This document shows positions 34,113-42,276 of a DNA stretch of 64,000 nt, piece after piece. The notes beneath the pieces were generated by a model. It made no database searches. It worked only from the letters and a program-made list of their open reading frames with translations, and was not told the origin of the DNA. The translations under genes were made by a program, and so were the position numbers. The number at the start of each line of letters is the position of its first letter. Position 1 is the first letter of the stretch. The stretch comes from Brachyspira aalborgi (GTDB lineage: Bacteria > Spirochaetota > Brachyspiria > Brachyspirales > Brachyspiraceae). The stretch covers positions 2,066,423-2,130,422 of the forward strand of contig NZ_SAXU01000001.1 in assembly GCF_008016455.1 (NCBI RefSeq), given 5' to 3'.

Positions 34113-34634
34113 ATGATTAAAGAATTTAAATACAAAATTGAAATAAACGATTTTATAGATTTTCAACTTCATTACTTAAAAACAAACTCTCAAATTAAAT
34201 CTTCCGCTAAAAAAAGCGTTATAATTTTGATAGCGATTTATATATTAATATTTATAGCGATTATTTTATTTTTCAAAGGCGATAATTATTTTATAATCGT
34301 TCCTGCAATTTTACTTTCCGCTTTATTTTCGTTAATACAAATAAAAACTTATAAAAATCGTTTGAATAAAAAAATAATTAAAAAAATATATCAATATGTA
34401 GATGATAGAAAACTTGACGGAGTTTTTGGCGATAAAATTTTAACTATATGCGAAGATAAAATAATTTTCAAAGAAGACAGAGGCGAGATGACTTTTAATA
34501 AATCGGACATAAAAAATATAGATTTTAGCGAGAAATCAATTTTTATTTATACCGATAATACTTCGGCTATAATTATTCCAAAAAGTTATTTGAGTAAGGA
34601 AGATATTGATTTTTTGATTAATTATAAGAATTAA
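34113..34634 (+). CDS. YcxB-like membrane protein
   Basis: 173 aa. Two adjacent membrane segments (about residues 35-52 and 58-75; VIILIAIYILIFIAIILFF) sit in an N-terminal part with KYKIEINDFIDFQLHYL. The C-terminal domain (ILTICEDKIIFKEDRGEMTF, then YTDNTSAIIIPKSYLSKED) is the YcxB type, a small PH-like domain. It starts 2 bases after the MbfA-like gene and is probably co-transcribed. The role is unknown. Confidence 0.72.
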   Translation: MIKEFKYKIEINDFIDFQLHYLKTNSQIKSSAKKSVIILIAIYILIFIAIILFFKGDNYFIIVPAILLSALFSLIQIKTYKNRLNKKIIKKIYQYVDDRKLDGVFGDKILTICEDKIIFKEDRGEMTFNKSDIKNIDFSEKSIFIYTDNTSAIIIPKSYLSKEDIDFLINYKN

Positions 34635-34670
34635 TTTTTATATTATGTAAAATTAATCGAATTTTTTTAT
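34630..34670 (+). terminator. rho-independent terminator after the YcxB-like gene
   Basis: ATTAATTTT (34630-34638) pairs with AAAATTAAT (34649-34657), followed by CGAATTTTTTTA. It overlaps the stop codon and isolates the repeat-bearing unit that starts with a new promoter at 34681. Confidence 0.65.
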
Positions 34671-34680
34671 TAATAAACTA

Positions 34681-34708
34681 TTGACAATTATTTACAATAT
34701 GTTATTAT
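34681..34708 (+). promoter_or_regulatory. promoter of the (CAACT)12 mini-ORF
   Basis: TTGACA at 34681-34686 and TATTAT at 34703-34708, spacing 16. AGGA at 34725-34728 and an ATG at 34735 follow. Confidence 0.7.
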
Positions 34709-34734
34709 ATAAATATAATTAAGTAGGATTTTTT

Positions 34735-34809
34735 ATGTCTGCATCAACTCAACTCAACTCAACTCAACTCAACTCAACTCAACTCAACTCAACTCAACTC
34801 AACTTGTAG
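34735..34809 (+). CDS. mini-ORF encoded by a CAACT repeat
   Basis: ATG TCT GCA leads straight into twelve CAACT units, so the peptide is MSA followed by turns of STQLN, then Leu and a TAG at 34807-34809: 24 residues in the present phase. It has promoter, AGGA ribosome site and start codon. One extra unit would move the stop to 34856-34858; one fewer would stop at 34812-34814. No recognisable protein continues in any phase, so this is either a switch/leader or the head of a gene whose body is lost. The methyltransferase at 34904 has its own ribosome site. Confidence 0.5.
   Translation: MSASTQLNSTQLNSTQLNSTQLNL
34745..34804 (+). repeat. pentanucleotide tandem repeat (CAACT)12
   Basis: Twelve perfect CAACT units directly after a start codon. 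Unit length 5 means gain or loss of one unit changes the frame. It shares the CAAC core with the minus-strand (CAACG)7 at 39323-39357. Confidence 0.97.
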
Positions 34810-34825
34810 TTTAAATAAATTATTT

Positions 34826-34834
34826 TGGTATAAT
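34826..34834 (+). promoter_or_regulatory. extended -10 promoter for the 34904 methyltransferase
   Basis: TGGTATAAT (extended -10) at 34826-34834, about 70 bases before the ATG at 34904; AGGAG at 34886-34890. Confidence 0.5.
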
Positions 34835-34903
34835 ATATTTAAATCCTCGTATTACTGACTTTTATATTTTTGAAAATAAAAATATAGGAGTTAATAATAC
34901 AAA

Positions 34904-35473
34904 ATGAAAGAAACTATTTTAGATAAATTTTTAAGAAAATATAGAATAAGAATGGTTAAACCGACTATAGAAAAATATAATAATTGTAGATTATTGGATG
35001 TAGGTTGCGGTTGGGAAGCCAAATTATTAAAGTCGATAGAAAATTATATAGATTATGGAGTAGGAATAGATTTTAAACCTCCAAAATTAAAAACTGAAAA
35101 ATTAGAAACTATCAAATCGGTTTTAGAAAAAGAACTTCCTTTTGAAAATGAAAGTTTTGATGTGGTTACAATGTTAGCTGTATTGGAGCATTTAAGTTAT
35201 CCTGAAGATATTTTAAAAGAAATTCGCAGGGTTTTGAAAAAAGATGGAAGATTAATAATAACTGTTCCTTCAAAAATAGCAAAACCTATATTGGAATTTT
35301 TAGCTTATAATATGCATGTTATTGACAGGCTTGAAATAGAAGACCATAAAAAATATTATAATAAAAAAGATATATTTGAAGCTGCTGAAATTTCTAATTT
35401 TATAGTTGAAAAACATAAATATTTTCAATTAAGATGCAATAATTTTGCAATTTTGAAAAAGAATATTAATTAG
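34904..35473 (+). CDS. class I SAM-dependent methyltransferase (type 11)
   Basis: 189-aa methyltransferase. Motif I is RLLDVGCGWEAKLL, the acidic end of strand 2 is YGVGIDFKPPK, and motif IV/post region is FDVVTMLAVLEHLSYPEDIL, followed by EIRRVLKKDGRLIITVPS. These are the marks of the UbiE/type 11 group. Substrate is not visible; in Brachyspira such genes often act on surface glycans or lipids. AGGAG precedes the ATG. It lies just downstream of the CAACT repeat unit. Confidence 0.85.
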   Translation: MKETILDKFLRKYRIRMVKPTIEKYNNCRLLDVGCGWEAKLLKSIENYIDYGVGIDFKPPKLKTEKLETIKSVLEKELPFENESFDVVTMLAVLEHLSYPEDILKEIRRVLKKDGRLIITVPSKIAKPILEFLAYNMHVIDRLEIEDHKKYYNKKDIFEAAEISNFIVEKHKYFQLRCNNFAILKKNIN

Positions 35474-35637
35474 TTTTATATTTTAATATTATTTTTACAT
35501 AATTATCGGTTTATAAAGTTTGTTTTATATGTATAATTAAATAGCTATAACTTTATTTATATAACTTGATTTTATCTTAAATTCATTGTATTATATATTA
35601 AAAAAATAAACGCTAAAATCGATTCGGGGAATAAATT

Positions 35638-36378
35638 TTGGAAAATATGATAGACATAATTAATAAAGCTCAATTAAAGACTATAGATAAAGATACATTT
35701 TTATCTGTAAGTTCTTTATGTTCTTCTATTCCAAAAAGTATTACCGAAAATCCTAAATGGAAAGAATTGCAAGCTACGGCTAAAGAGATTTATAGAACTT
35801 TGGTTTCAAATTACGATTATGAGCTTGGAATAGCGAGAATAACGCATTCTCAAATATTAAACGAAGCTGGAATTGGCGGAAATGCAACTATAGTTAAATC
35901 TATCGATATTTTAGAAGAGAAAGGTTTTATAATAAGAGTGGAATCAAAATCGAAAAGTCATCATTATTTAATGCCTTATCAAGAAAAACTTTATTCCGAA
36001 ACATGCAATTTTGAAGCGAGAGATTTATCGGCTTTTTATACCATAAGCAAAAAGAATAAAAGAGAAGAAAAATCTAAACAGTCGATTGATAAACTTTTTT
36101 ACAAGGTTTGTTATAATTTAAACTGTTTAGGAATAGACGCTCCGCATAAACTGATTGATAAATATTCTTCGGATGGAGGTAAATTAAGAATTATATTATC
36201 TATGTCGGATGCAATTTATATAGCTAAAAAATATAATTTAAAGAAAAATATTGATTTAAATAAATATCTTATAGATTTATTGAAAAAAGGAAATTTAAGA
36301 GATAATATATTTGATAATGAAACAATGAATACTATAAGAAATATAATTATAAAAAATAAACAAAATATTACAGAGTAA
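35638..36378 (+). CDS. winged-helix DNA-binding protein
   Basis: 246 aa. Start is TTG at 35638 behind GGGGA with 7-base spacing; an ATG three codons later is the alternative. Residues about 40-110 look like a winged helix: WKELQATAKEIYRTLVSNYD, then ITHSQILNEAGIGGNATIVK and SIDILEEKGFIIRVES. The rest is helical and basic. No effector or phosphoacceptor domain is seen. It is probably a transcription or replication-linked DNA-binding protein. Four bases separate it from the LysM gene, so the two are likely co-transcribed. Confidence 0.65.
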   Translation: MENMIDIINKAQLKTIDKDTFLSVSSLCSSIPKSITENPKWKELQATAKEIYRTLVSNYDYELGIARITHSQILNEAGIGGNATIVKSIDILEEKGFIIRVESKSKSHHYLMPYQEKLYSETCNFEARDLSAFYTISKKNKREEKSKQSIDKLFYKVCYNLNCLGIDAPHKLIDKYSSDGGKLRIILSMSDAIYIAKKYNLKKNIDLNKYLIDLLKKGNLRDNIFDNETMNTIRNIIIKNKQNITE

Positions 36379-36382
36379 AATT

Positions 36383-37960
36383 ATGGCGACAAAAAAAACA
36401 AATAACGAAGAAAATTCTAAAAGAAATTCCGCTTCAAAAAAATCTGCGGAAATATCTAAAACGAGCAAAAAGCAAACTGCAAGTTTAAAAAAGAAAACGG
36501 ATGGGCAGATAAAAAAAACTACGACTAAAAAAACTGCAACTAAAAAAAGCGTTGAAGTTCCTAAAAAAACCGTTTCTTCAAGCATAAGAAAAATAGAACC
36601 TATAAAAACGGACGATATTGAAAAAAAAGAAGAGAGAGAATCAATAAAATTATTGAGAGAAGCTATAAAAGCAAAATCTAAAAATATCTCAAAACCCGTA
36701 TCTGTAAAAAAACATTTGATAATAAAAGACGAAGAGATAAAAGAAAATGAAACAGCTTCAAATACAACGGAAAGTTCTATTATAAATAAAGAAAACGCTA
36801 AAAATGTAGAAAAAGCCGATTATATTTTTAACGAGTTTAAGAAAAAAGAAGAAACTAAAGAAATAAAAACTGAAAATAAAACATTTAGCAAAAATACTTA
36901 TAGCAAAAGCGATATATTTAAAAAGCCCGTTATAATAAGAAGTCCTATAGAAGCGGAAGAATTAAAAAGAAATATAGAAAACTCTAAATTTAATCAAAGC
37001 GAAATGGACGAAGCTATAGAAAATGCGGCTATGATAGAAGAAGATACGCCGATTGAAGATTATAGCATATATTCGAGTAAAAAATTAGAAGAGTTAAGAA
37101 AAAAAGATATAAAAATAATAGAAACTGAAGACGAAATGAAAGCGAGCGGAATTCCAGAAGTTGAAAGAAAACCAGCTCAACCTTATACCGCTCCAGCTCA
37201 TTCTTCGGCAAAAAAACAAAAAAAATCAAACAAATTGATTGCGATTATAGGAATTATAATAATAATATTAGGTTTGTCTTATTTAGGATTTCAATTTTTT
37301 GGAAATAAAACGGACGCTTTAGAAGACGATTTTTATAGCACTATATCGACAAATGAAAACGAAACTAATAATATAATTTCTTCTACTACTACAAATACAA
37401 ATGAAAATATTTCTCAAACTAATGAAACTGAAAATATTACAAATGAAATTTCTAAAACTAACGATATAGCAAAACAGAATAGCGATAAAGTTATTGAAAC
37501 TAACGATATTAAATCGGTTTCTTCAAATAATACGATTATTCAATCGAATATCGCAACTTCTCCAAAACCAAATTTGCCTAATACTCCAAATATTCCTAAT
37601 CCGCCGATTATACCAAATCCGCCAGCAAAAAATACGAATGCATATTTGGGCGGAAACACATACAGAACAAAATGGACGGATACTTTAACTTCTATAGCTT
37701 CAAGCGAACTTGGAGATGCAAGAAGATGGCCCACAATTTATGTTATGAATGAAAATATTTTTAAGGACCCTGATTCTTTGGTTTTCAATAAAGATATTAA
37801 AATTCCCGAAGGCGCAAAAAAAAAAGTTGATGAGATGAATGCGGAAGAGAGAAGGGCTTTATATAACGACTATATGAGAGTAGCCGAAATATATTTAAGT
37901 ATTGGAAAAACAAATTCTGCAAATACAATGAAGAGCAGAGCGAATTCAATTATAAAATGA
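36383..37960 (+). CDS. single-pass membrane protein with C-terminal LysM domain
   Basis: 525 aa. The N-terminal 60 residues are extremely Lys/Ser/Thr-rich (KKTATKKSVEVPKKT type). A long charged region follows, then one membrane span near 285-305 (LIAIIGIIIIILGLSYLGF). A Thr/Asn-rich linker with a Pro-Asn run precedes a LysM-like fold near 430-475 (YRTKWTDTLTSIASSELGD, then ARRWPTIYVMNENIF), which would bind peptidoglycan outside. A helical tail (EERRALYNDYMRVAEIYL) ends it. The basic cytosolic head could contact DNA or RNA. Overlaps the next gene by 4 bases. Confidence 0.72.
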   Translation: MATKKTNNEENSKRNSASKKSAEISKTSKKQTASLKKKTDGQIKKTTTKKTATKKSVEVPKKTVSSSIRKIEPIKTDDIEKKEERESIKLLREAIKAKSKNISKPVSVKKHLIIKDEEIKENETASNTTESSIINKENAKNVEKADYIFNEFKKKEETKEIKTENKTFSKNTYSKSDIFKKPVIIRSPIEAEELKRNIENSKFNQSEMDEAIENAAMIEEDTPIEDYSIYSSKKLEELRKKDIKIIETEDEMKASGIPEVERKPAQPYTAPAHSSAKKQKKSNKLIAIIGIIIIILGLSYLGFQFFGNKTDALEDDFYSTISTNENETNNIISSTTTNTNENISQTNETENITNEISKTNDIAKQNSDKVIETNDIKSVSSNNTIIQSNIATSPKPNLPNTPNIPNPPIIPNPPAKNTNAYLGGNTYRTKWTDTLTSIASSELGDARRWPTIYVMNENIFKDPDSLVFNKDIKIPEGAKKKVDEMNAEERRALYNDYMRVAEIYLSIGKTNSANTMKSRANSIIK

Positions 37961-38328
37961 AAAATATAAAAAAGAAAAATATTATATTAGGATTCTCATG
38001 TAAAGGCTGCGGAACATGTTGCAAAGAAAAAGGATATATTTTTTTTAATAAAAGCGATATATCGAAAGCCTCAAAATATCTCGGCATAACTCCTTTAATT
38101 TTTATAAGCAAATATTTAGATTATGATGATTCTTTAGGTTATCATATTAAAGTTGATAATGAAAATCGTTGTCATTTTTTAGATAAAAACGATAAATGTT
38201 TAATACATAAAGCGAAACCTACTCAATGCAAAACTTTTCCATATTGGAAAGAATACACAGATAAAAACAGAAATTTAATTTCGGGTAAATTTAATAGACC
38301 TTGCAAAGGCGCGATAGTAAAGAAGTAA
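37957..38328 (+). CDS. YkgJ-family zinc/iron-chelating Cys-cluster protein
   Basis: 123 aa. The YkgJ/CxxCxxCC domain is visible: SCKGCGTCCKEKGYIFFN, then CHFLDKNDKCLIHKAKPTQC and KTFPYW. These cysteines probably bind a metal cluster; the biochemical role of the family is not established. ATGA overlap with the LysM gene. Confidence 0.88.
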   Translation: MKNIKKKNIILGFSCKGCGTCCKEKGYIFFNKSDISKASKYLGITPLIFISKYLDYDDSLGYHIKVDNENRCHFLDKNDKCLIHKAKPTQCKTFPYWKEYTDKNRNLISGKFNRPCKGAIVKK

Positions 38329-38361
38329 TTTTTTGGTTATTTTGCTAACAAAAATAACAAC

Positions 38362-38397
38362 ATAAAAAAAACGGTTTATACAATTAAGTATAAACCG
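38362..38397 (-). terminator. rho-independent terminator of the 39157 outer-membrane protein
   Basis: CGGTTTATAC (38372-38381) and GTATAAACCG (38388-38397) form a perfect 10-bp stem with loop AATTAA. Read on the minus strand it is followed by TTTTTTT (38370 downwards), 50 bases after the OMP stop. Confidence 0.85.
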
Positions 38398-38446
38398 CAA
38401 ATCAAGGTATTAGAATTTATATAAAAAATTTGAAAAAGATTTTGCT

Positions 38447-39157
38447 TTATGCTTTCGGTCCAAATTTCAAACCTAACTCTACGCCTATATCGAATACGCC
38501 TTCAATTTCAGATTTTTCTCCAAGCTCTGGCGTAGCTTTAGTTTTAAGCATATCATATCCTAAATATAAACCAATATTAAAAGCTAATTTATCGGTAAAG
38601 AAAATAGAATAATCAAAAGTTCCTTTAATATAGCCTATAATAGCGGGACTATAGTTATCTCTAAAAACTTTCATGTCTATTTTTTCTTTGCCTTTAATTG
38701 TAGTATCTCCAATTTTAGCTTTAGAAGACAATTGAAAAGCTACGGGAATTTTTACTCCGCCGCCAATACCGATTGCGAAAGCTCCGATATTGATTTTTGG
38801 AAGCAAGCCAATTTGGAAACTATCCATAATATAAGCTGCATAGATTGAAATTTTAGTTCCTAACTCTTCATATTTTTGAGTAAGCGCGCGAGTAGTATGA
38901 GCGTATCCTAACTCTCCCAAAACGCTTATTCCAAAACCGCTTTTAACTTGCAACATATAACCTAATTGAGCGGTAACTCCAGCGTCAAAACCTATTCCGC
39001 TTTTCCATTTAATGTCTTTTTCACTTTTGCTAGGAATGCCGATACCCAATCCGAGTGGCACATTTAATATAAACTCAAATCCGCTTGCTGCAAATGCCGA
39101 TACGCTAAAAATCATCGTCATCGCCATTATTACAATAAATTTTTTAATGTTTTTCAT
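38447..39157 (-). CDS. small outer-membrane beta-barrel protein
   Basis: 236 aa. The signal peptide is MKNIKKFIVIMAMTMIFSVS followed by AFAAS (cleavage after AFA). The mature protein is a chain of amphipathic strands with many Gly and aromatic residues (GIGFDAGVTAQLGYMLQVK, GFGISVLGELGYAHT, FNIGLYLGYDMLK) and ends GVELGLKFGPKA. This is the type of an eight-to-ten-strand barrel of the kind common in Brachyspira. It has a good ribosome site (AAGGAG), is preceded by a repeat-bearing leader ORF, and has a strong terminator. Confidence 0.8.
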   Translation of the reverse strand: MKNIKKFIVIMAMTMIFSVSAFAASGFEFILNVPLGLGIGIPSKSEKDIKWKSGIGFDAGVTAQLGYMLQVKSGFGISVLGELGYAHTTRALTQKYEELGTKISIYAAYIMDSFQIGLLPKINIGAFAIGIGGGVKIPVAFQLSSKAKIGDTTIKGKEKIDMKVFRDNYSPAIIGYIKGTFDYSIFFTDKLAFNIGLYLGYDMLKTKATPELGEKSEIEGVFDIGVELGLKFGPKA

Positions 39158-39316
39158 TTTATTATCTCCTTGTATGAAAAATTTTTATTTATAACAAAAT
39201 CGGGTTTCTTCTCTCCCGATAAGTTGCCAAAGTTAAAGTATCCGAAAGAAACGGATAAAGAATTAAAAAATAATTTATTAAATTTATTATGAGATTGTTT
39301 TTTAAAAAATTTAAAG

Positions 39317-39397
39317 TTATGCCGTTGCGTTGCGTTGCGTTGCGTTGCGTTGCGTTGCAAATGCATATACAGTATTGTTATTTATTGTAATTTTCAT
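39317..39397 (-). CDS. leader mini-ORF containing (CAACG)7 upstream of the OMP gene
   Basis: On the minus strand a consensus promoter (39472-39445), GAGGAAAG and an ATG at 39397 start MKITINNNTVYAFA, which runs into the CAACG repeat (TQRNA turns) and stops at TAA 39317-39319 after 26 residues. With one more repeat unit the frame instead reads through to TGA at 39154-39156, which overlaps the OMP ATG as ATGA. In that phase the peptide would be 82 residues, ending NFSYKEIIK. The arrangement suggests a phase-variable leader controlling the OMP by translational coupling; this is inference. Confidence 0.55.
   Translation of the reverse strand: MKITINNNTVYAFATQRNATQRNATA
39323..39357 (-). repeat. 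pentanucleotide tandem repeat (CAACG)7
   Basis: Seven perfect CAACG units on the minus strand (CGTTG on plus), inside the leader ORF that starts at 39397. Confidence 0.97.
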
Positions 39398-39444
39398 ATT
39401 AAACTTTCCTCACCGATTTCTCGGCAAATAGTTTTACTAATTAA

Positions 39445-39472
39445 ATTATACAATATTAAAAAAATATGTCAA
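39445..39472 (-). promoter_or_regulatory. promoter of the leader ORF-OMP unit
   Basis: On the minus strand TTGACA (39472-39467) and TATAAT (39450-39445), spacing 16. Both hexamers are perfect consensus. Confidence 0.8.
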
Positions 39473-39558
39473 GCGTTTTTAAGAAAAAAAATAATTTCTC
39501 ACATGGATGCAGAAAATTAAAAGAGCAAGAATCTATAATTTCTTAATTATTTAATTTA

Positions 39559-39885
39559 TTATCTTTTACCAAAATGCAAACCTACAGTTATGTCGGCGCC
39601 AATAGAATGATGCTGATTTATATTATAGCCTGCAAATAATCTGTTTCTATCATTTTTATCGAAAAACATATATTCGTAATAAATGTCTAATCCTGCAACC
39701 AAAGCAATTTTTTCTGTAGCGTAAATTCTATCTTCTGCAAATAAACGAACATAAGGCGAATAAGGAATTTTAGTAGGTCTTCTTATTCCTTCTATAAGCG
39801 GAATAAATTTTACGCCTGAAGCTACTCCAAAAGCCAAATCTATTATCGATGCGGGATTTTCATTTATAATAAATTTAATTATTCT
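39559..39885 (-). pseudogene. 5'-truncated outer-membrane beta-barrel gene
   Basis: Open minus-strand reading from 39885 to a stop at 39559 encodes the C-terminal strands of a barrel: LAFGVASGVKFIPLIEGIRR, YSPYVRLFAEDRIYATEKIA, GLDIYYEYMFFDKNDRNRLF and SIGADITVGLHFGKR. The only starts are a TTG at 39837 and none has a signal peptide or ribosome site, and an in-frame TAA lies at 39886-39888. The gene has lost its front half. It differs from the neighbouring OMP at 38447, so it is a second barrel family. Confidence 0.6.
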
Positions 39886-40524: not shown

Positions 40525-42276
40525 ATGAATAAAAAAATAATGAAATTGCCCGATTCTGTCGCTAATCGTATAGCTGCTGGAGAAGTTATAGAAAGACCCG
40601 CTTCTATGCTTAAAGAACTTTTAGAAAACGCTATTGATTCTAAAGCCGATAATATAGAAGTTTCCACTCAAGAATCTGGAATAAAAAGCATGATTGTAGA
40701 AGATAACGGAGAGGGAATAAAATTTGAAGAACTTCCTCTTGCAATATCTCATCATGCCACGAGTAAAATTCATTCTATTGAAGATTTGGATTCTATTAAT
40801 ACTTTAGGTTTCAGAGGCGAGGCTTTAGCTTCAATATCGGATGTTACGAATTTAGAAATTATTTCAAAAAATGCAAATGAAAATAACGGAGGCAAAATAA
40901 TTGTAGAAGGAGGAAAGATAATAGAGCATAAACCCGCAGCCGCTTCTAAAGGCACAAAAATTATAGCGAAAAATCTATTTTTTAATATACCTGCAAGATA
41001 TAAATTCTTAAAACATACTTCAAGAGAATTTTTTCTTATGAAAGAAGTTTTCGATGCGGAAGCTTTAGTTCAACCTAATATTTCAATGAGATTAACAAAT
41101 AACGGAAGACTTGCAATATCTTACGCGAAAGCTAAAAGCTTAAAAGATAGAATAGAAAATTATTTAAATGATAACGATATATTTTCAAATCTTATAGAAA
41201 TAAACATTGAAAAAGAAAATATTTCTATTTACGGTTTATTTTCAAATTCAAAAATTAGTCAATCAATCAAAAAGAATAATTTTATATTTTTAAATAATCG
41301 TCCGATTGAAAATAGAGCGATTTCTTTTGCAATAAAAAACGCTTATTCAAACACCATACCAAAAGAAAGATATCCGTTTTATTTTTTATATATAAATATT
41401 GATTGCAATAAAGTCGATGTCAATGTTCATCCAAGCAAAAAAGAAGTTAGAATAAAAAACGAAAGAGAAACATCGGCAATGATTTATAACGAAATATTTA
41501 ATAAAATAAACGAAGGCGCTTATTTTTCTTCTGTAAATATTGAAACCGATATTGAATCGACTCCGATTTTTAAAATTCAAAATGCTGAAAATTACGCTAA
41601 TCAGTATAACAATTATAATAATACAAAAGAATATTATAATTCTTATCAAATTAAAGAGTTTAGTAAATTCGCACCCGAAAGAGATTTAAGAGAATTCGGA
41701 GAATATACGAAAGCGGTTGGACAAATATTTTCTTCGTATATAGTCGCTGAAAGAGGAGAGGAAATGTATATTATAGACCAGCATGCCGCCTATGAAAGAT
41801 TAAATTACGAAAGAATATATAAAACCTTAACAAAAGGAAAATTAGAATACGAAAAATTATTAGTTCCTTGCGAAATAGAATACAGAGATTACGAAATAGA
41901 TATTTTAAATAGTCATAAAGAAACTATCGAAGCTATCGGAATAAAATTTGAAACCAATTCAAAAAACAGCATAATAATAGAAGAAGTTCCGATATATATG
42001 CCGAAAAATCAAAAAATAGAAAAAATGATTAAAGATATTTTGGATATTTATATTTCAAAAGGCGAAAATAATTCTTTGGAAAAACTTATAAAACATACAT
42101 GCAGTTCAATCTCTTGCAAATATTCTCCAAAAGCGGGAGATAGACTTTCAAATAGCGATATTCAAATTTTACTTGACTTGCTTGAAAAAGAAAATATTTT
42201 AACCAACTGCCCGCATGGACGCCCGTTTGTTTTAAGATTATCGAAAGATTATTTGGATAGAAAATTTTTCAGATAA
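40525..42276 (+). CDS. mutL: DNA mismatch repair protein MutL (endonuclease type)
   Basis: 583 aa. GHKL ATPase head: AAGEVIERPASMLKELLENA, then VEDNGEGI and TLGFRGEALASISDV. The C-terminal domain carries the endonuclease motif DQHAAYERLNYE (DQHAx2Ex4E), the cysteine motif CSSISCK and CPHGRP. So it is a nicking MutL, used by bacteria that lack MutH, and strand choice depends on other cues. It is complete, so hypermutation from this gene is not expected. No mutS in the window. Confidence 0.96.
   Translation: MNKKIMKLPDSVANRIAAGEVIERPASMLKELLENAIDSKADNIEVSTQESGIKSMIVEDNGEGIKFEELPLAISHHATSKIHSIEDLDSINTLGFRGEALASISDVTNLEIISKNANENNGGKIIVEGGKIIEHKPAAASKGTKIIAKNLFFNIPARYKFLKHTSREFFLMKEVFDAEALVQPNISMRLTNNGRLAISYAKAKSLKDRIENYLNDNDIFSNLIEINIEKENISIYGLFSNSKISQSIKKNNFIFLNNRPIENRAISFAIKNAYSNTIPKERYPFYFLYINIDCNKVDVNVHPSKKEVRIKNERETSAMIYNEIFNKINEGAYFSSVNIETDIESTPIFKIQNAENYANQYNNYNNTKEYYNSYQIKEFSKFAPERDLREFGEYTKAVGQIFSSYIVAERGEEMYIIDQHAAYERLNYERIYKTLTKGKLEYEKLLVPCEIEYRDYEIDILNSHKETIEAIGIKFETNSKNSIIIEEVPIYMPKNQKIEKMIKDILDIYISKGENNSLEKLIKHTCSSISCKYSPKAGDRLSNSDIQILLDLLEKENILTNCPHGRPFVLRLSKDYLDRKFFR

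Follow-up and report, generated by a model that had tools for sequence, protein, structure and literature searches.

Brachyspira aalborgi carries numerous short leader reading frames built around non-triplet tandem repeats, and the most probable overall reading of our data is that they are phase-variable translated leaders, in which ribosomes in the ON frame would be carried past hairpins in the leader RNA. Switching by reading frame is the firmest part of this reading and is very strongly indicated by the sequence, while a hairpin-centred output mechanism is favoured with lower confidence. The repeat-driven leader loci, mainly preceding genes for surface proteins and sugars, likely constitute a genome-wide set of random on/off switches. 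The window (the whole analysed stretch of 64,000 nucleotides from contig NZ_SAXU01000001.1) contains two such leaders, one preceding the gene of an outer-membrane beta-barrel protein (OMP) and one preceding a methyltransferase gene (Table 1).

The OMP leader consists of tandem repeats within a short ORF that has its own ribosome-binding site and is located 5' of the gene. The promoter, ribosome-binding site, start codon, (CAACG)7 array and stop codon listed in the preliminary description were all present and correctly placed on the minus strand. When the array was replayed in silico, 5 or 8 units extended the leader to 77 or 82 amino acids, and its TGA (39156-39154) then overlapped the OMP ATG (39157-39155), in agreement with the earlier claim that a single extra unit brings the leader stop onto the OMP start. 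This stop/start overlap, the hallmark of translational coupling, was obtained at the window OMP only with 5 or 8 units. With 4, 7 or 10 units, the leader stop was located 162 bases 5' of the OMP ATG (about 160 in the earlier estimate), and with 6 or 9 units, 34 bases 5' of it; neither the latter frame nor the second leader of the window had been mentioned previously. The array lies outside the frame of the OMP itself, which has its own SD and ATG, and the through-frame TGA is in another phase. The 7-unit stop was found approximately 60 bases 5' of hairpin 1 and 97 bases 5' of hairpin 2, and the 8- and 9-unit frames read past both hairpins, the second of which (6 bp, TTTTGTTAT) has only modest terminator character. 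The Pfam search of the leader ORF gave no match, and the Rfam search of window positions 34600-39600 gave no family match up to E = 1. Three further elements were observed in the vicinity. A short hairpin (GCCGA-GAAA-TCGGT, 39409-39428, minus strand) is located just 5' of the leader SD and is common to the CAACG and CAAAG leaders. A short ORF 5' of the leader (39559-39837, minus strand) has an outer-membrane-barrel-like end (ADITVGLHFGKR) and no Pfam match. An intact mutL gene (40525-42276, plus strand) lies approximately 1.1 kb from the array, and mismatch repair status bears on repeat stability.

Table 1. Features of the two leader loci within the window (coordinates refer to the window).
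Feature	Position	Strand	Remarks
Promoter-like TTGACA-16-TATTAT, second leader	34681..34708	+	read directly
Second leader ORF	34735..34808	+	ATG 34735; early stop in present phase
(TCAAC)12 array in second leader	34744-34804	+	
Long hairpin covering methyltransferase SD	34849..34899	+	predicted by folding
Methyltransferase gene, PF08241, 189 aa	34904..35473	+	downstream of second leader
Sigma-70 type promoter TTGACA-16-TATAAT, OMP leader	39445..39472	-	12/12 consensus bases; consensus match, start not mapped
Leader SD GAGGA	39407-39411	-	5' of leader ATG 39397
OMP leader ORF, present 7-unit form, 26 aa	39317..39397	-	ATG 39397, TAA 39319-39317
(CAACG)7 array	39323..39357	-	within OMP leader ORF
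Rest of through-frame (5, 8 or 11 units)	39154..39322	-	in-silico replay; openness kept in paralogs
Leader hairpin 1, TATCCG-7 nt-CGGATA	39239..39257	-	
Leader hairpin 2, ATCGGG-10 nt-CCCGAT then TTTGTTAT	39199..39220	-	terminator-like
OMP's own strong SD AGGAG	39166-39170	-	
Outer-membrane beta-barrel protein (OMP), 236 aa, PF13505	38447..39157	-	Pfam match

At the methyltransferase locus, the hairpin had a predicted energy of -25.9 kcal/mol over 34805-34910 (z from -5.7 to -5.8), and the whole SD of the gene, AGGAG (34886-34890), was predicted to be paired with 34859-34863. The longest leader frame was obtained with 10 or 13 TCAAC units and ended at a TGA (34856-34858) inside the 5' arm of this hairpin. 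The OFF state would here be imposed by the hairpin hiding the ribosome site, and the (TCAAC)12 leader with its buried SD is probably the cleanest test locus within the window. Translational attenuators of the ermC type are controlled by drug-stalled ribosomes. The methyltransferase leader shares with them a stop in the arm of an SD-hiding hairpin and differs in that its control would depend on repeat number and frame.

Pattern searches combined with inspection of the contexts identified approximately 79 pentanucleotide arrays in the genome (2.50 Mb, 8 contigs), built from 17 different units. An array was counted only if its unit contained CA and the copies sufficed, and the total is therefore a lower bound. 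On the CA strand, none of the 79 array units contained a stop. For 73 of the 79, an ATG no more than 60 bases away was open into the array; 38 of these had an SD, and on the opposite strand none had one. The leader starts were called by ATG and SD alone, and the SD rule used for gene starts misplaces at least one of them (L127). At 64 arrays there was a separate downstream gene with its own SD and ATG. The products of the genes behind the arrays included surface and export proteins (OMPs and many lipoproteins, identified by their lipobox), enzymes of sugar transfer and modification (FkbM methyltransferases, glycosyltransferases 8 and 11, PMT_2 and polysaccharide pyruvyl transferase), as well as a PTS transporter, MatE, an ABC transporter and dynamin-like GTPases. 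The number of units differed among copies within the one genome, from 4 to 19 for CAAAG and from 6 to 20 for CACTA. PF05540, the Brachyspira variable-surface-protein family, had six matches in the genome and none in 14 control genomes, and Rho is present. Searches of named genome contigs found neither an OMP relative nor the exact leader pattern. The array pairs at G000:C1:2000698-2000925 and 2004286-2004427 (L174, L175) flank N runs and may represent unresolved repeats.

The reading frames between array and gene were evaluated at 59 loci with gap-free leaders, a frame being counted as reaching if it ended no more than 17 bases short of the gene start or downstream of that point, and dinucleotide shuffles of the leader (500 replicates) served as the null. 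At least one frame from the array reached the gene start at 52 of the 59 loci, compared to 10.2 ± 2.3 (maximum 17) in the shuffled leaders, which rules out a chance origin of the open frames. The exact ATGA overlap was present at 18 of the 59 loci (shuffled 2.9 ± 1.4, maximum 8). Related leaders are not independent, and they were sorted by similarity into 20 groups, each weighted as one; the group-weighted values were 14.9 of 20 versus 4.9 ± 1.3 for reaching frames and 5.9 versus 1.2 ± 0.8 for ATGA. One reaching frame was found at 45 loci and two at 7, and no frame reached the gene start at the other 7 of the 59. The present phase was short at 45 loci versus 11 otherwise. Variable sites in the leaders were distributed over the three codon positions as 196/219/256 in the big group and 55/54/33 in the CACTA group; the OMP coding control gave 676/534/983, with the expected excess at the third position. 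The leader frame had no clear third-position excess, and thus openness, rather than the peptide, appears to be kept. A functional small protein encoded by the leader was rejected, there being neither clear codon-position constraint nor a Pfam match.

The phase in which the 52 reaching frames arrived at the gene was approximately uniform (16 in frame, 20 in the ATGA register and 16 in the other phase). What is kept is therefore reaching the start, not the exact hand-over, and exact ATGA was ruled out as a selected feature. Elsewhere, the through-frames end by fusion with the gene or in an overlap of another phase, or, in other species and at the second array of the window, at a stop in or just before a hairpin. 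These results bear on strict translational coupling, according to which ribosomes ending at AUGA would restart on the OMP start with no role for the hairpins. The enrichment of exact ATGA, the strong SD beside the stop, which suits re-initiation, and a congeneric leader (G022) that likewise has ATGA at an OMP speak for it, and the same overlap links the window OMP and 17 other loci to coupling of the trpE-trpD type. Unlike in that type, the through-frames here have further end-points besides this overlap, and the upstream ORF would be a leader that can switch. The uniform phase, the in-frame fusion in four OMP paralogs and, in two other species (G018, G024), a leader end 39 bases upstream argue against strict coupling; moreover, with a strong SD that is no more hidden than usual, the OMP gene should start unaided. 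We therefore regard strict coupling as an unlikely explanation. The AUGA end-point, which the preliminary description had taken as the key feature, was not supported in that role, given the uniform phase, the fused paralogs and the related leaders of the two congeneric species that stop within the hairpin.

Six further OMP copies in the genome have homologous leaders with other units (ACAGT ×8, ×5 and ×5; CAAAG ×7, ×4 and contracted ×1). The through-frame was in frame with the OMP in four of these paralogs and stopped 4 bases before the ATG in another, and paralog L123 had lost the leader end together with the signal peptide. In comparison to the ACAGT copies, the A-run of the window leader was one base shorter (AATAAAAATTTTTC against AATAAAAAATTTTTC), which accounts for the ATGA arrangement there. 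In paralog L118 (G000:C1:1971079), the array was down to one unit and apparently stuck in the short-leader phase. Read differently, the four in-frame paralogs, open from the leader ATG through the OMP, and the one-base difference in the A-run could mean that the leader simply belongs to the 5' end of a longer OMP gene, an ordinary repeat within a gene, with the window copy off frame by an A-run deletion or a sequencing error. Arrays truly inside genes do occur, at L031, L033, L155 and L178, and in the opa genes of Neisseria the (CTCTT)n array is located within the gene's own signal-peptide codons. The opa system resembles the present one in its pentanucleotide array, frame-shifting by slippage, outer-membrane products and several paralogs; it differs in that here a separate SD and start codon for the gene follow the array. 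An N-terminal extension before a signal peptide should block Sec export, and the leader would add 60-90 amino acids ahead of the signal peptide or lipobox. Furthermore, the internal start of the fused OMP and lipoprotein copies still has an SD, an ATG and a signal peptide or lipobox. Of the 52 reaching loci, 36 are out of frame, and the leader codons lack protein-type constraint. A repeat-in-gene origin of the OMP leader thus appears improbable. Phase variation in a leader ORF rather than in the gene is, as a general idea, strongly supported at the sequence level by the genome-wide recurrence, the open frames and the homologous leaders at the OMP paralogs.

A two-helix hairpin approximately 30 bases 5' of the ATG is common to the OMP/CAAAG/CAGAA leader group. 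Hairpin 2 of the window OMP leader is part of this element, which is distributed genus-wide and carries compensatory changes. Among 17 sequences, 89.8% of cells were paired, compared to 32.6-42.2% when the structure was slid, and the covariation was 0.358 versus 0.231 ± 0.023 after shuffling; in the inner helix, both-side changes were found in four of five pairs. The loop lengths differed by 3 and 6 bases, so that the reading frame is preserved along with the hairpin. A covariance model of the element identified 19 copies in the genome, 16 at known leader loci and 3 where the array was contracted or absent, and also matched 17 of the 29 family genomes. Hairpin 1 is conserved in the ACAGT paralogs, where one pair is G-U, and in a sister-species leader, where the loop has changed. 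At 16 loci (null 0.67 ± 0.89), there was a terminator-like hairpin with a U-tract, and looser criteria raised this number to 22 (null 2.15 ± 1.33). The most striking were CGCCG..CGGCG-ATTTTTTC and AGCCA..TGGCT-GTTTTTTC, directly 3' of CACTA and CAATA arrays, and in this group the OFF stop is located within the terminator-like hairpin. The gene starts behind arrays were as accessible as those of control genes (unpaired 0.458 versus 0.450, P 0.52). SD hiding is therefore not general and was rejected as a rule, the exception being the second locus of the window.

The comparison between species was based on one genome per species. Each of the other genus genomes had approximately 2-30 matches to the array pattern (one array may match twice), and three other family members had no match. 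Matching leader cassettes were present in a sister genome (G006), in which the array has disappeared from the orthologue of the 1849950 lipoprotein locus, leaving it fixed in the through-frame while it retains both hairpins; this array-less leader encodes 69 amino acids and stops 5 bases into the gene. The ATGA-bearing G022 leader contains (GCACACA)11. The leaders of G018 and G024 have 7-base arrays, and their longest frame ends within the hairpin, 39 bases 5' of the ATG. In further species, the ends of leaders with CAACA arrays fell between -28 and +1 relative to the gene, apart from a single one that lay much farther away. The feature shared by the leader ends across species is therefore that the putative ON frame enters or passes the hairpin. 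Arrays of the 7-base units GCACACA, GCATACA and GCATATA were also observed 5' of a matching hairpin element at L213, L219, L220 and L221 of other genus genomes. In G006, the leaders L195, L202, L216 and L217 contain seemingly inserted interspersed repeats (e.g., LARNDIENNF), and the through-frame is still open. The two-helix hairpin also occurs in G020 and G012 with neither leader nor array, and therefore serves some function independent of them. A constitutive 5' UTR element (for stability or as a standby site) accompanied by selfish or neutral arrays, with expression independent of unit number, would fit those two genomes and the near-fixed distance of the hairpin before the SD, but neutral arrays would neither leave a frame open to the gene at 52 of 59 loci nor follow an SD on the sense strand only, and we consider it the least probable of the explanations, at less than one chance in ten.

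According to the hairpin-centred mechanism that we favour, slippage would alter the count of 5-base units in the short leader ORF. In one of the three frames (two at some loci), ribosomes would pass the leader hairpins to or near the gene start; in the other frames, they would leave soon after the array, allowing the hairpins to form, and the gene would be poorly expressed. The OFF state may result from early transcription end, either intrinsic or Rho-dependent, and stop-start coupling may act as a variant or addition at the ATGA loci. We infer slippage, the ON/OFF effect and the exact action of the hairpins. At the window OMP, the present 7 units are predicted to be OFF and 8 (or 5) units to be ON. 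For the 9-unit (or 6-unit) form, the hairpin model, unlike strict AUGA coupling, predicts ON, since the stop falls immediately 3' of hairpin 2.

A related mode of control has been described in Streptococcus gallolyticus, where GCAGA repeats in a leader peptide of pil1 and pil3 control a premature terminator (Danne et al. 2014, PMC3894217). In pil1 mutants, a leader stop at least 28 bases before the hairpin resulted in low expression, and a stop just before, within or after the hairpin in high expression, while removal of the terminator locked expression on (PMC3894217). Both systems have 5-base repeats in a separately started leader ORF and a surface structure as target, and in both the frame sets the leader stop either well before or at and after a hairpin that the ON frame passes. 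The preliminary description regarded the arrangement as a distinct form of phase variation; its placement of the repeat in a separately started leader rather than in the gene was borne out at approximately 60 loci of the genome, but the principle itself is not new in view of pil1/pil3. The stop geometry of pil1 (at least 28 bases before the hairpin versus into or past it) was found at the window OMP and not in the CACTA/CAATA group, whose OFF stops are located where the S. gallolyticus rule predicts ON, a finding against the hairpin model. The modest strength of OMP hairpin 2, the occurrence of the two-helix element where there is no leader or array, the 7 loci lacking a reaching frame and the lack of general SD masking likewise count against this model. 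The two systems also differ in scale, as pil1 and pil3 are two pilus loci of a Firmicute, whereas approximately 60 leader loci with 17 units are found here in a spirochaete. Moreover, the through-frames read here from the sequence mostly continue to the gene start or into the gene itself, and the hairpin types vary by locus, with only part of them resembling intrinsic terminators.

For the genus as a whole, the evidence leans slightly towards a regulatory layer in Brachyspira formed by a mobile or duplicating leader cassette, which would have been placed before dozens of unrelated genes to act as independent random switches with an output step that differs by group. The cassette would comprise a promoter, a start, a 5- or 7-base non-triplet array, an open frame and structured RNA. 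Its targets would be surface, glycosylation and transport genes, with the repeat never touching the controlled protein, and the output steps would include a terminator, a hidden ribosome site and a stop-start hand-over. No account of repeat-driven phase variation in Brachyspira turned up in the literature that we searched. Gene callers and scanners that seek repeats within genes would miss such leaders or label them as junk ORFs. If the reading is true, the genome would contain a large set of repeat-driven switches acting mostly via leader ORFs, a mode for which the precedents known to us are two streptococcal pilus loci, and surface variability in Brachyspira would have a direct explanation open to testing.
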